A program made the translations under genes and the position numbers. From the IMG/VR virus record IMGVR_UViG_3300047440_000118, positions 1 through 62,483 of that record: a stretch of DNA of 62,483 bases, one strand, 5' to 3'. Of this stretch, positions 865 through 4,105 are shown piece after piece. The DNA is from a virus. The notes beneath the pieces were generated by a model that saw only the letters and a program-made list of their open reading frames with translations, had not been told where the DNA came from and did not search any database. Every line of letters starts with the position of its first letter. Positions within the stretch are counted from its first letter, which is position 1.

Positions 865-1044
865 ATGGCCGCGCACCTGACGATGGTTTCACGTGACGGG
901 TTTTCGCTGACCGAGGCGCTGGACCTCGCCAAACGCATCGGCCGGGGTGAACTGATCCTCGTTGAGCCGATGGACGATGAGGAAGGCGATGTGACCGTTC
1001 GCGAGCGCGATACGATCGTCGCCGCGCTGCGGGCGTTCGCGTGA
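865..1044 (+). CDS. Small hypothetical protein (59 aa)
   Basis: The gene starts two bases after the preceding stop and its stop overlaps the GTG start of the helicase gene, so it is translationally coupled on both sides. The product is acidic (ILVEPMDDEEGDVTVRERD). Genes like this often precede the SNF2-like helicase in alphaproteobacterial phages. No domain is recognised. Confidence 0.6.
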   Translation: MAAHLTMVSRDGFSLTEALDLAKRIGRGELILVEPMDDEEGDVTVRERDTIVAALRAFA

Positions 1045-3035
1045 GCGACTACGCCGCGTTCCTGGCATCGAAGGCGCCGGCCGACGCGCCGAGCGGCCTG
1101 ACCATCGTGCCGCCCCTGTGTCCCGCCCTCAAGCCGTTCCAGGCGGCGATCACGGCATGGGCTTTGCGCCGAGGACGCGCGGCGATCTTCGCCGGGACCG
1201 GACTCGGAAAGACCCTGATGCAGTTGGAATGGGCGAACAACGTCACGGAACACACCGGCCTTCCCGTGCTGATCCTTTGCCCGTTGGCCGTCGCCGAGCA
1301 GACCGTCGCCGAGGCGGACAAGTGGGGCATCCCTGGCGTGGCCTACGCGGCGGACCAATCGCAAGCGGTGACGCCCATGGTCGTGACGAATTACGAACGC
1401 TTCGAGAAGTTCGACATCTCGCGGTTCGTCGGGATCGTGCTTGACGAGTCGGGCATCATCAAGAGCCACGACGGCGCGACCCGCAAGCTGTTGACCGAGG
1501 CGTGTCGCGATGTGCCGTGGCGGCTGTGCTGCACCGCGACGCCGAGTCCGAACGACTACACCGAGTTGGGTCAGCACTCCGAGTTCCTTGGTGTCATGGA
1601 CGCGAAGGAGATGCTCGCGATGTTCTTCGTCCATGACGGTTCGATCCGCGCGAACGACGCGACACAGGGCAACGACGGATGGCGGATGAAGCGACACGCG
1701 GCGGCTGACTTCTGGCGCTGGCTGGCGTCATGGAGCGTGATGGTTCGCCACCCGCGCGACCTTGGCTTTGACGAACCGGGTTATGACCTCCCGCCGCTCA
1801 ATCTGCATCAGGTCACGGTCGCGGCCGAATACAAACCCACGGCCGGCGAGTTGTTTCCGATGCTGGCATCGACGCTATCGCAACGGATTGGTGTGCGGCG
1901 GGACACGGCGGCTGATCGGATTTCCCATGCTGTAAATATAATTTGTAACCCGGACCACTTTCGTTCTAAATTGCCACCATGCTATCAGACGAAGCAAAGG
2001 AACGACGAAAGGCCGCCGCTCGCGAGCGATACGCCACGGACCCAACCCGCAAACAGGCGGTCAAAGACGCCGCTCTCAAAAGTAGACGAACCGACGCGGG
2101 TAAAACCTACATGCGAGCCTATTACGCCGCTCACAAGATCAATTGGAACAAGAGAACCCAAGAGCAAAGAGATTCTTACAACGCAAAACGCAGGGAAAAA
2201 TACGCCTCTGATCCAGAATTCAGAAAGAAACTCATCGAGCGGGCAAAATCTGTTCCCAGCGGCGCCCCTGAAGAAAAACGAAAACGGCGTCTCAAAGACA
2301 GTTTCGGACTATCAATTGAAGAACATGATTTCATGCTCACCAAACAGGGGTGGGGATGCGGAATCTGTGGGCGAGAACATAGCGATACCACAGGTAGAAG
2401 GTTGGCCGTCGATCACTGCCACCGAACCGGGAACGTCCGAGGTCTTCTCTGCGGTCGGTGCAATAGCGGACTCGGACAATTCGCCGATAGCGAAGAACTC
2501 CTCCGAAAAGCGATCGAATACCTTAATCGTCCACGATCCGGAATCATGGGTAGTTTGGTGCAACCTAAACAGCGAACAAGACGCCCTGGAAAAAAAGTTA
2601 GGTGATAAATGCCTATCGGTGTTTGGCTCGCTACCTTCTCATGAGAAGGTCCGGCGGATTGGCCGATGGATGAATGGGGATAGGCCGATTTTGCTTTCTA
2701 AACCGTCGATTTGCGGCCATGGGTTGAATCTACAAAGATGCCACCGTATGCTTTTCGTTGGTCTGACCGACAGCTTCGAGCAGGTCTATCAGGCCATCCG
2801 GCGCTGCTGGCGCTTCGGTCAGACCCGACCCGTCGAGGTGTATTTCGTCGCGTCCGAACTCGAAGGCAACGTCGTCGCCAACCTGAAACGCAAAGAGGCG
2901 GCGTTTGAGTTGATGCTTGATTCGATGTCAATTCACATGACGGACCTGATGCGCGAGAACGTGATCGGTGGCCGCAACGCGACGGTCATTCAATCGGCGA
3001 ACAAGAGGATGGAACTCCCCGCATGGATCAACTGA
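1041..3035 (+). CDS. SNF2/DEAD-like superfamily 2 helicase, interrupted by an in-frame insert
   Basis: A superfamily 2 ATPase with GTG start. Walker A is AGTGLGKT (residues 51-58), a DEAH-like LDES follows near 134, then TATPSPND near 169, and the C-terminal arginine-finger motif QAIRRCWRFGQTRP lies near 580. The two RecA-like lobes are separated by about 196 codons of Ser/Thr/Pro/Lys-rich, domain-free sequence (residues 305-500). Relatives of this phage helicase are about 450-480 residues and run directly from the first lobe to the WVVWCNLN motif. The extra sequence is a 588-bp insert carrying an endonuclease gene in another frame, yet the helicase frame has no stop in it. The protein either carries a long linker or is non-functional; the sequence cannot decide. 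It probably acts in replication initiation or fork remodelling. Confidence 0.88.
   Translation: MSDYAAFLASKAPADAPSGLTIVPPLCPALKPFQAAITAWALRRGRAAIFAGTGLGKTLMQLEWANNVTEHTGLPVLILCPLAVAEQTVAEADKWGIPGVAYAADQSQAVTPMVVTNYERFEKFDISRFVGIVLDESGIIKSHDGATRKLLTEACRDVPWRLCCTATPSPNDYTELGQHSEFLGVMDAKEMLAMFFVHDGSIRANDATQGNDGWRMKRHAAADFWRWLASWSVMVRHPRDLGFDEPGYDLPPLNLHQVTVAAEYKPTAGELFPMLASTLSQRIGVRRDTAADRISHAVNIICNPDHFRSKLPPCYQTKQRNDERPPLASDTPRTQPANRRSKTPLSKVDEPTRVKPTCEPITPLTRSIGTREPKSKEILTTQNAGKNTPLIQNSERNSSSGQNLFPAAPLKKNENGVSKTVSDYQLKNMISCSPNRGGDAESVGENIAIPQVEGWPSITATEPGTSEVFSAVGAIADSDNSPIAKNSSEKRSNTLIVHDPESWVVWCNLNSEQDALEKKLGDKCLSVFGSLPSHEKVRRIGRWMNGDRPILLSKPSICGHGLNLQRCHRMLFVGLTDSFEQVYQAIRRCWRFGQTRPVEVYFVASELEGNVVANLKRKEAAFELMLDSMSIHMTDLMRENVIGGRNATVIQSANKRMELPAWIN
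1955..2542 (+). mobile_element. 588-bp frame-preserving insert carrying an endonuclease gene
   Basis: The boundary is inferred from a direct repeat CCGGA at 1950-1954 and 2538-2542, exactly 588 bp (196 codons) apart and in the same codon phase of the helicase. The insert is visibly AT-richer than its surroundings. It holds almost nothing except the endonuclease VII-like ORF, which starts 25 bases inside the left edge and borrows its stop codon from the helicase DNA on the right. No group I intron core fits in the 24 bases ahead of the ORF. No intein splice residues (Cys/Ser start, His-Asn end) are present in the helicase frame. Confidence 0.7.
1979..2605 (+). CDS. Recombination endonuclease VII-like HNH homing endonuclease
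   Basis: The 208-residue protein has a basic N-terminal half with RYATDP/KYASDP-type repeats, then a classic endonuclease VII zinc/HNH fold: CGIC at 127-130, LAVDHCH with the catalytic DH at 145-146, and CGRCNSGLGQF with paired cysteines and Asn162. A LLRKAIEYL helix closes the domain. The last 22 residues are read from helicase DNA in the wrong frame, and the stop also lies there. No clear Shine-Dalgarno precedes ATG 1979. Free-standing members of this family act as homing endonucleases in phages. Here the ORF is nested inside the helicase gene, which remains open. Confidence 0.85.
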   Translation: MLSDEAKERRKAAARERYATDPTRKQAVKDAALKSRRTDAGKTYMRAYYAAHKINWNKRTQEQRDSYNAKRREKYASDPEFRKKLIERAKSVPSGAPEEKRKRRLKDSFGLSIEEHDFMLTKQGWGCGICGREHSDTTGRRLAVDHCHRTGNVRGLLCGRCNSGLGQFADSEELLRKAIEYLNRPRSGIMGSLVQPKQRTRRPGKKVR

Positions 3036-4105
3036 CGAACTTAGGCGCGATGCCGCTCATCATGGATCAGGCGTCGGGCGATAACTTCCACATCTGGAAC
3101 GATGATTGCATCGCGGTGATGAAAGGCATCCCAAACGACTCCATTCATATGGCGATATGGTCGCCGCCGTTTTGCTCCCTCTACGTGTTCAGCGACGATC
3201 CGCGCGACGTGTCTAACAACCGGAATGACGCGGTGTTTTTCGATCACTATCGGTTCGTGTTGGCCGAGGTCTTCCGCATCATCAAGCCGGGGCGGCTTAT
3301 CTCGATCCATTGCATGAACCTGCCGACCTCGATCACACGGGACGGCTTCATTGGGATGCGTGATTTTCGCGGCGACAACATCCGGCTTTGTCAGGATGTG
3401 GGGTTCATCTACCACTCCGAGGTCGCTATCCGTAAAGATCCCGTGAGCGCGATGCAGCGCACGAAGGCCATCGGTCTATTGCACAAGCAGGTCGTGAAGG
3501 ACTCCGCGCTGAGCCGGATGGCCATCGCCGATTACATCGTGACGATGCGCAAACCCGGCGAGAACGATAAGCCGATCAGCGGCATCTTCGAGACCTATCA
3601 CGGCGACGACATGACGGACGCCGAACTGACCGCGTATGCCAACGCCAACTATCAGCCGGGCGGCAACCGCTCGCGCGAGGAAAACAAGTCGATCCACATT
3701 TGGCAGCGATATGCCGAGCCGATCTGGACGGACATAAACCAGTCCGACGTTCTCTCCCATCGCGTGGCGCGGGCGGAACACGATGAACGGCACATCAGTC
3801 CGCTCCAACTGACGCCCATTCGCCGCTGTCTGGACCTGTGGACCAATCCCGGAGACGTGGTGTTCTCGCCGTTCGCCGGCATCGGTTCGGTGGGCTACAT
3901 CGCGTTGGAGATGGGCCGGCGGTTCTGTGGCGCGGAGTTGAAGGCGTCTTACTTCCGTCAGGCCGCGTTCAATTTGCGGTTGGCCGAGCGGATGAAGAAC
4001 GACGGCACGCTATTCGATGCCGCTATGATGGCGGATCAATTCGATGAGGCTGACGAACCCGACGAACTTGAAATAGCCGAGGGAGGGCTGTTCGGTGGCG
4101 AGTAA
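3023..4105 (+). CDS. DNA methyltransferase (N4/N6 amino class)
   Basis: The 360-residue protein has the amino-methyltransferase motifs in the permuted order of the beta class: catalytic motif IV SPPF at 47-50 near the N-terminus and the SAM-binding SPFAGIGS near residue 280, followed by GRRFCGAELK. It overlaps the helicase end by 13 bases. SPPF allows either N4-cytosine or N6-adenine as target. The gene probably protects phage DNA from host restriction or mimics host epigenetic marking. No cognate endonuclease is adjacent, so it is an orphan. The recognition sequence cannot be read from the protein. Confidence 0.87.
   Translation: MDQLTNLGAMPLIMDQASGDNFHIWNDDCIAVMKGIPNDSIHMAIWSPPFCSLYVFSDDPRDVSNNRNDAVFFDHYRFVLAEVFRIIKPGRLISIHCMNLPTSITRDGFIGMRDFRGDNIRLCQDVGFIYHSEVAIRKDPVSAMQRTKAIGLLHKQVVKDSALSRMAIADYIVTMRKPGENDKPISGIFETYHGDDMTDAELTAYANANYQPGGNRSREENKSIHIWQRYAEPIWTDINQSDVLSHRVARAEHDERHISPLQLTPIRRCLDLWTNPGDVVFSPFAGIGSVGYIALEMGRRFCGAELKASYFRQAAFNLRLAERMKNDGTLFDAAMMADQFDEADEPDELEIAEGGLFGGE

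Follow-up and report, generated by a model that had tools for sequence, protein, structure and literature searches.

An endonuclease VII-like gene nested out of frame within a viral SNF2-like helicase gene whose reading frame stays open

The window analyzed here, a stretch of 62,483 nucleotides of viral DNA (IMG/VR record IMGVR_UViG_3300047440_000118, positions 1 to 62,483), harbors a helicase gene within which a second gene is nested (Table 1). The helicase, which has Pfam matches to Helicase_C and an SNF2-related domain, is interrupted between its two RecA lobes by an insert encoding an Endonuclease VII-like nuclease on the same strand. The ORF coordinates and the Pfam result agree on this out-of-frame nuclease, which had been proposed in an earlier note made from the sequence alone. 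The note had also stated that the nuclease takes its stop codon from helicase DNA, and the TGA at 2603-2605 does lie within lobe 2, which is overlapped by the final 68 nt of the nuclease gene, stop included. The helicase frame is open across all 196 inserted codons, again as claimed, while the third frame contains 14 stops over the nuclease; the virus can therefore probably still make the helicase. A single copy of the nuclease is present in the contig of this virus. An N6/N4 DNA methylase gene (window 3023-4105) overlaps the end of the helicase, and the helicase-methylase gene order is common to the window, the Gordonia phages discussed below and locus L007.

Table 1. Coordinates of the nested locus in the window, with putative and proposed features marked as such
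Feature	Position	Strand	Remarks
Helicase ORF, whole	1041-3035	+	664 aa; host gene of the nested nuclease
Helicase lobe 1 (SNF2-like RecA lobe), up to insert	1041..1949	+	Pfam SNF2-rel_dom and DEAD; confident AF2 model
Putative left gene-conversion tract	1911..1949	+	Helicase residues 291-303; identity drops from 0.87-0.98 to 0.36-0.55
-35-like box TTGTAA of proposed nuclease promoter	1943..1948	+	18-nt spacer to the -10-like box
Insert	1950..2537	+	588 bp; helicase frame has 0 stops in 196 codons; ends approximate to within some codons
-10-like box TAAATT within conserved leader	1967..1972	+	6 nt (GCCACC) before the nuclease ATG
Endonuclease VII-like nuclease	1979..2605	+	208 aa; offset 2 relative to the helicase; PF02945 E=3.9e-23
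Helicase lobe 2 and stop	2538..3035	+	Pfam Helicase_C E=1.8e-8; AF2 model confident to about residue 620
Putative right gene-conversion tract	2538..2768	+	First ~77 lobe 2 codons; identity 0.40-0.54; insert-associated haplotype

When the insert is removed from the sequence, an in-frame helicase of 468 aa remains, and its entire length can be aligned with uninterrupted homologues, referred to here as empty helicases, from which the insert is missing. This alignment bears out an insertion between the RecA lobes, although the exact 196-codon boundaries that had been predicted are uncertain by some codons. The CCGGA direct repeat that flanks the insert was previously taken to mark its ends. The insert itself is confirmed, but a 5-bp repeat is too short to serve as a boundary marker; because of this, and because the flanks appear to have been rewritten by gene conversion, the exact ends remain uncertain. 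No longer repeat spanning the insert ends was found at the window locus, and interpretation of CCGGA as a target-site duplication was rejected on the same grounds. In the AlphaFold2 model of the window helicase both lobes are confident and pLDDT is below 50 over residues 320-498, consistent with the insert being read in the helicase frame as a predicted disordered loop or linker.

The nuclease scores 81.6 bits against PF02945 (Endonuclease_7), for which the curated cut-off is 23.6. PHROG endonuclease VII families match it with values of up to 5e-32, and in a profile search of the PDB it matches Hpy99I (3.8e-14) and T4 endonuclease VII (8.8e-9). Its structure model has a pLDDT of 83; a Foldseek search of this model against the PDB gave no significant match, the best being Hpy99I at E=0.14. 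The zinc-binding CxxC pairs and the DHCH...N catalytic region are both present, as in Hpy99I and the T4 endonuclease VII/PF02945 family, and residues C127, C130, D145, H146, H148, C158, C161 and N162 are invariant in 22 members. Unlike T4 endonuclease VII, which resolves branched DNA, and Hpy99I, the members described here add a basic N-terminal region and sit within another gene.

The helicase and the nuclease were used as queries in IMG/VR, GTDB genomes and cultured phages. At least 40 nested helicase loci were collected in this way, and frequencies within the collection are not an estimate of prevalence. The 40 loci comprise 35 with the offset of the window, three with the nuclease in the other offset (L311, L378 and L386), in which the frame kept open is that other frame, and two with stops in the host frame (L015 and L275). 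Two insertion sites are represented: site A lies between the lobes, as in the window, and site B falls within lobe 2, immediately preceding the 'RVLISKP' motif. Among cultured phages, a nuclease nested in the helicase is found in the Gordonia phages Malisha and Squiddly, where the locus is annotated as 'DNA helicase' alone and the nuclease is unannotated. Members from bacterial genomes are found in Rhizobium sp. 16-449-1b (L188) and a Sphingobium MAG (L189).

Several loci depart from the common arrangement. L174 (3529-4363; 31% GC) has a stop-free insert and one in-frame stop in lobe 2 (FSF*GLYQ), which may reflect mutation, an error in sequencing or recoding of the stop. L358 (2495-3046) is the sole member with a stop in the nuclease frame; its helicase frame is still open, and it represents a decayed nuclease inside a still-readable host. 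In L274 (2318-3193) the helicase is broken right after Walker A and fused in frame to a nuclease, after which comes a second nuclease copy. L270, L277 and L370 were not counted as nested, the nuclease lying downstream of a complete helicase, and L203, L211, L249, L076 and L291 were rejected as having long open frames beside the nuclease without a convincing interrupted host gene.

In L015 and L275 the helicase is split at the same site, and an open host frame is consequently not obligatory. Homologous inserts with helicase-frame stops had been named beforehand as an observation that would count against dual coding; they make up these two of the 40 loci, and the other 38 have none. Together with T4 topoisomerase gene 39/60, which was split by a homing endonuclease (PMC5009743), the two loci lend some weight to the idea that the helicase is split in practice, with lobe 1, the nuclease and lobe 2 made separately and the open frame unused. 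We regard this as quite unlikely for the group as a whole, since a split gene does not need the uninterrupted host frame of the 38 loci, and the paired CxC motifs that straddle the insert at site B (see below) also argue against it.

Endonucleases commonly ride group I introns, and both the interruption of a conserved gene and the patchy distribution of the insert could suggest a self-splicing or otherwise spliced RNA element carrying the nuclease. However, Rfam gave no match at the gathering threshold over the window or in five related loci, and relaxing the threshold to E up to 5 for the insert region gave one implausible microRNA match that lies outside the insert. The insert has no unusual RNA fold (z-score 0.15), only 29 nt of it precede the nuclease start, and a spliced element has no need of a stop-free host frame. 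The intron was rejected on the Rfam and folding results and must be considered very unlikely. An intein was rejected as well, the helicase having no splicing-domain motifs: no intein model matched the window helicase, while terminase large-subunit (TerL) loci were matched in the same search. The earlier statement that the insert is neither an intron nor an intein is supported by these results.

The same note estimated that an open run of 196 codons would arise about once in 12,000 under uniform codon use. This figure is overstated, because the uniform-codon null is the wrong one. When the nuclease protein is held fixed and its synonymous codons are varied, the probability of a stop-free helicase frame at the window locus is 0.013 with the nuclease's own codons or 0.0005 with helicase codon usage, so that the evidence for selection from this single locus is suggestive, not compelling. 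The window nuclease is rich in Lys, Arg and Glu, and at offset 2 stops arise only where a codon with T in the middle and A or G in the third position is followed by A or G. In free-standing nuclease relatives the offset of the window is indeed the stop-poorer one, with 879 stops against 1,624 in the other offset, and several nested members individually have P >0.3 for a stop-free host frame. Each of these results favors the view that the open frame is a by-product of the composition of a hydrophilic nuclease, a stop-poor offset and in-phase ends, with no selection for read-through.

The comparison across the 40 loci rejects chance as a full explanation. The host frame is stop-free in 38 divergent loci, including AT-rich members (29–34% GC); over these 38 loci together, 68 stops are expected with each nuclease's own codons shuffled and 109 with helicase codon usage. 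The corresponding joint probabilities, 1e-43 and 1e-56, treat the loci as independent although they are related through the nuclease; we therefore rely on the contrast with free-standing relatives and with the third frame. Among 45 free-standing relatives that align over 130 codons or more, none lacks stops, and at the nested loci 336 stops occur in the 6,647 codons of the third frame. The three members that keep the other frame open, and the co-occurrence of CxC pairs on both sides of the insert, are further evidence against chance openness, an account to which we would give very little credence. Maintenance of the dual coding by selection, as suggested from the window, is thus supported by the 38 open loci and the lack of open free-standing relatives, although the single-locus statistics were insufficient for it.

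Constraint on both frames, an analysis suggested with the original observation, was examined in relatives. The nuclease frame diverges as a normal protein does (codon position 3 > 1 > 2), while the host frame is kept mainly stop-free. When nested loci are compared with a free-standing control matched for nuclease identity, amino acid identity in the host frame is 0.30 for the former and 0.25 for the latter; the next bin gives 0.41 and 0.33. Beyond stop avoidance, this is only a slight excess over the control, indicating that the host frame is open with little sequence constraint. Comparison of the sequences supports the conclusion that selection holds the helicase frame open and barely constrains its amino acids.

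A more specific feature of the host frame is found at site B, where CxC motifs occur on both sides of the insert in 11 of 15 loci, on neither side in four and on a single side in none, a count inflated by the relatedness of the loci. Such pairs are absent from 70 empty helicases and from 18 site-A loci, and the background is 4 in 744 windows. Because the downstream CxC shares DNA with C-terminal codons of the nuclease, and the upstream CxC in some loci with the -35 region, constraint at the nucleotide level may account for part of the conservation; the upstream CxC and the -35 box do not coincide in L038 and L191. We hypothesize that the CxC pairs form a metal site holding the base of the loop. 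A metal site of this kind, like the open host frame, might also be expected if the insert were a functional helicase domain, for example in DNA binding, and the nuclease frame a relic, but this can be dismissed as extremely improbable given the protein-like constraint on the nuclease frame, its interruption by a stop in one member only (L358), the almost unconstrained amino acids of the host frame and their predicted disorder.

The element looks mobile, to judge from its patchy occurrence on the helicase tree, its two gene sites and the apparent conversion tract in the window. On a tree of helicase lobe 1 with 108 rows, the inserted and empty states require at least 19 changes, at least nine of which are forced by starred branches, and L008-L011, the loci most closely related to the window, lack the insert. 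Identity of lobe 1 to the four nearest uninterrupted relatives is 66–77% over residues 1-100 and 87–98% over residues 201-290, before the drop at the left tract. Past the right tract, identity to the four nearest empty relatives recovers to 0.78-0.95. GC3 of the right tract is 0.51, compared to 0.81 and 0.80 outside it. Such flanks are what gene conversion by a divergent donor sequence would be expected to leave behind. The lobe 2 haplotype downstream of the insert is found in 18 of 18 helicases with an insert at site A and in one of 70 empty helicases. That single exception, L111 (2501-3901), may have lost its insert or may be a donor-type allele.

No Shine-Dalgarno sequence is evident upstream of the nuclease ATG in the window. 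Instead, a leader with the consensus GTGCTAAACTGGCA lies ahead of the nuclease start in 23 of the 35 members, occurring at both sites and in a phase that hardly varies; the other 12 lack it. The leader resembles an extended -10 element (TGnTAAACT), and 15 of the 23 leader-bearing members have TTG at a spacer of 16–18 nt, where 1.6 would be expected; in L038 and L191 the box is TTGACA and the spacer 17 nt. The distance from leader to start is 2 nt in a short form or about 23 nt in a long form, and several loci with the long form have GGAG-like sequences. The consensus and the spacing fit a promoter that would yield a leaderless or short-leader transcript.

The reading that we consider probable, with good confidence, is that the insert is an endonuclease VII-family homing gene located in the linker of the helicase, where the host frame would be read through without splicing, the nuclease made from the second frame, and the element spread by homing with co-conversion. 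The host would be a phage helicase of the SNF2-like type, entered by the homing gene at the flexible stretch that joins its two RecA lobes. Ribosomes reading through the insert, as the open frame implies they could, would produce a helicase with a disordered loop of roughly 196 residues. The nuclease would be expressed from the other frame, probably by its own sigma70-type promoter, with transcription starting at or just before the start codon. It would presumably cut insert-free helicase alleles, which would then acquire the insert together with adjoining helicase DNA during repair. From then on a single DNA would be under purifying selection for two products, the nuclease being constrained as a protein and the helicase frame being kept clear of stops.

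Nested nucleases of this type are also found in other host genes. Terminase large-subunit inteins at L213, L241, L325 and L345 contain an Endonuclease VII-type nuclease out of frame, as do the terminase inteins of Mycobacterium phages Phlyer (L428) and AlanGrant (L429) and Gordonia phage Affeca (L427). The three phages have 0 host-frame stops each, the nuclease is confirmed by Pfam in Phlyer and Affeca, and the annotation gives the intein or terminase alone. A preprint by Gosselin et al. (bioRxiv 2025.01.02.630785), reportedly on inteins of actinobacteriophages that have a 'non-canonical architecture', may already cover these terminase examples. Two weaker, single cases are L040 (2013-3230), in which an Endonuclease VII-type ORF, nested within a frame free of stops, precedes a dGTP_diPhyd_N domain and has a near-repeat on each side (STGGQKGTK / TTGGLKQVK), and L374, in which the nuclease is nested in a DUF6582-containing ORF. 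It is possible that frame-nested endonuclease VII genes form a widespread selfish class in several unrelated phage genes (the SNF2-like helicase at two sites, terminase inteins and possibly a capsid-region gene and the dGTP_diPhyd_N gene), with their own leaderless promoter, selected for host frames free of stops and, at one of the two helicase sites, with the loop held closed at its base by a Cys4 metal staple; we consider the case for this broader proposal evenly balanced.

A homing element that occupies an important gene normally depends on an intron or intein for its removal. The comparative statistics point to overprinting combined with host-frame read-through as an alternative to both that has been used repeatedly, and its occurrence in about 40 distantly related phages suggests that selfish genes widely reside in this manner inside an important gene without breaking it. 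The loci offer a natural experiment on overlapping genes, in which one frame is normally constrained and the other appears to be selected mainly to lack stops. They also suggest an expression route for the hidden nuclease, from its own promoter with a leaderless or short-leader transcript. Direct tests could be made in the cultured phages Malisha, Squiddly and Affeca (Gordonia) and Phlyer and AlanGrant (Mycobacterium). Current annotation, as in Malisha and Squiddly, overlooks the nested gene.

Ordinary inteins carry their endonuclease in frame. The TerL inteins of B3/B4 mycobacteriophages, by comparison, have nested homing endonucleases (PMC5050341) and resemble the window in being mobile inserts in a conserved phage gene, with the host frame read through and an out-of-frame nuclease of the endonuclease VII type; the helicase insert differs in having no splicing domain. 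In T4 gene 39/60, as in the window, a nuclease was inserted in a conserved gene, but there the homing endonuclease insertion left the gene in pieces (PMC5009743), whereas the window retains a single ORF. L015 and L275 belong to the split type.

The closest precedents were published in 2025 by Arsenault, Gosselin and Gogarten, and the claim in the earlier note that no described homing element uses dual-frame coding is outdated. In that report (PMC11855218), the ShiLan domain of mycobacteriophage ShiLan gp65 is an out-of-frame endonuclease with an open host frame, for which leaderless initiation is proposed, and Pacc40 gp60 contains a hidden HNH-like out-of-frame insert whose host frame is also open. 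The kind of element is thus known. Pacc40 gp60 belongs to the same helicase family as the window gene (35% identity) and likewise has an out-of-frame nuclease, but the nuclease is a different one and lies at a third site, in lobe 1 just before the GYDLPPL motif. The Pacc40 insert (L431, 3102-7127) is flanked by ICRCLC ... QCPC, similar to the CxC motifs of site B, although nuclease and site differ. Elements of the endonuclease VII form, insertion at the two helicase sites, a demonstration of selection, a conversion tract and a promoter-like leader are absent from the papers examined; for ShiLan in particular, the text examined does not report host-frame selection, a promoter or a conversion tract. 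With about 40 helicase examples, two published curiosities become a testable class. According to the same report, the ShiLan domain shares with the window an offset of 2, the lack of a detected intron or intein, a disjunct distribution and the lack of an obvious ribosome site, while its host is a DNA methylase and it is reported from mycobacteriophages (PMC11855218). Its nuclease, which we found to be HNH_3 (PF13392) on re-reading the genome, is not homologous to the PF02945 nuclease of the window. The window insert therefore has the ShiLan-type architecture and is a separate element.
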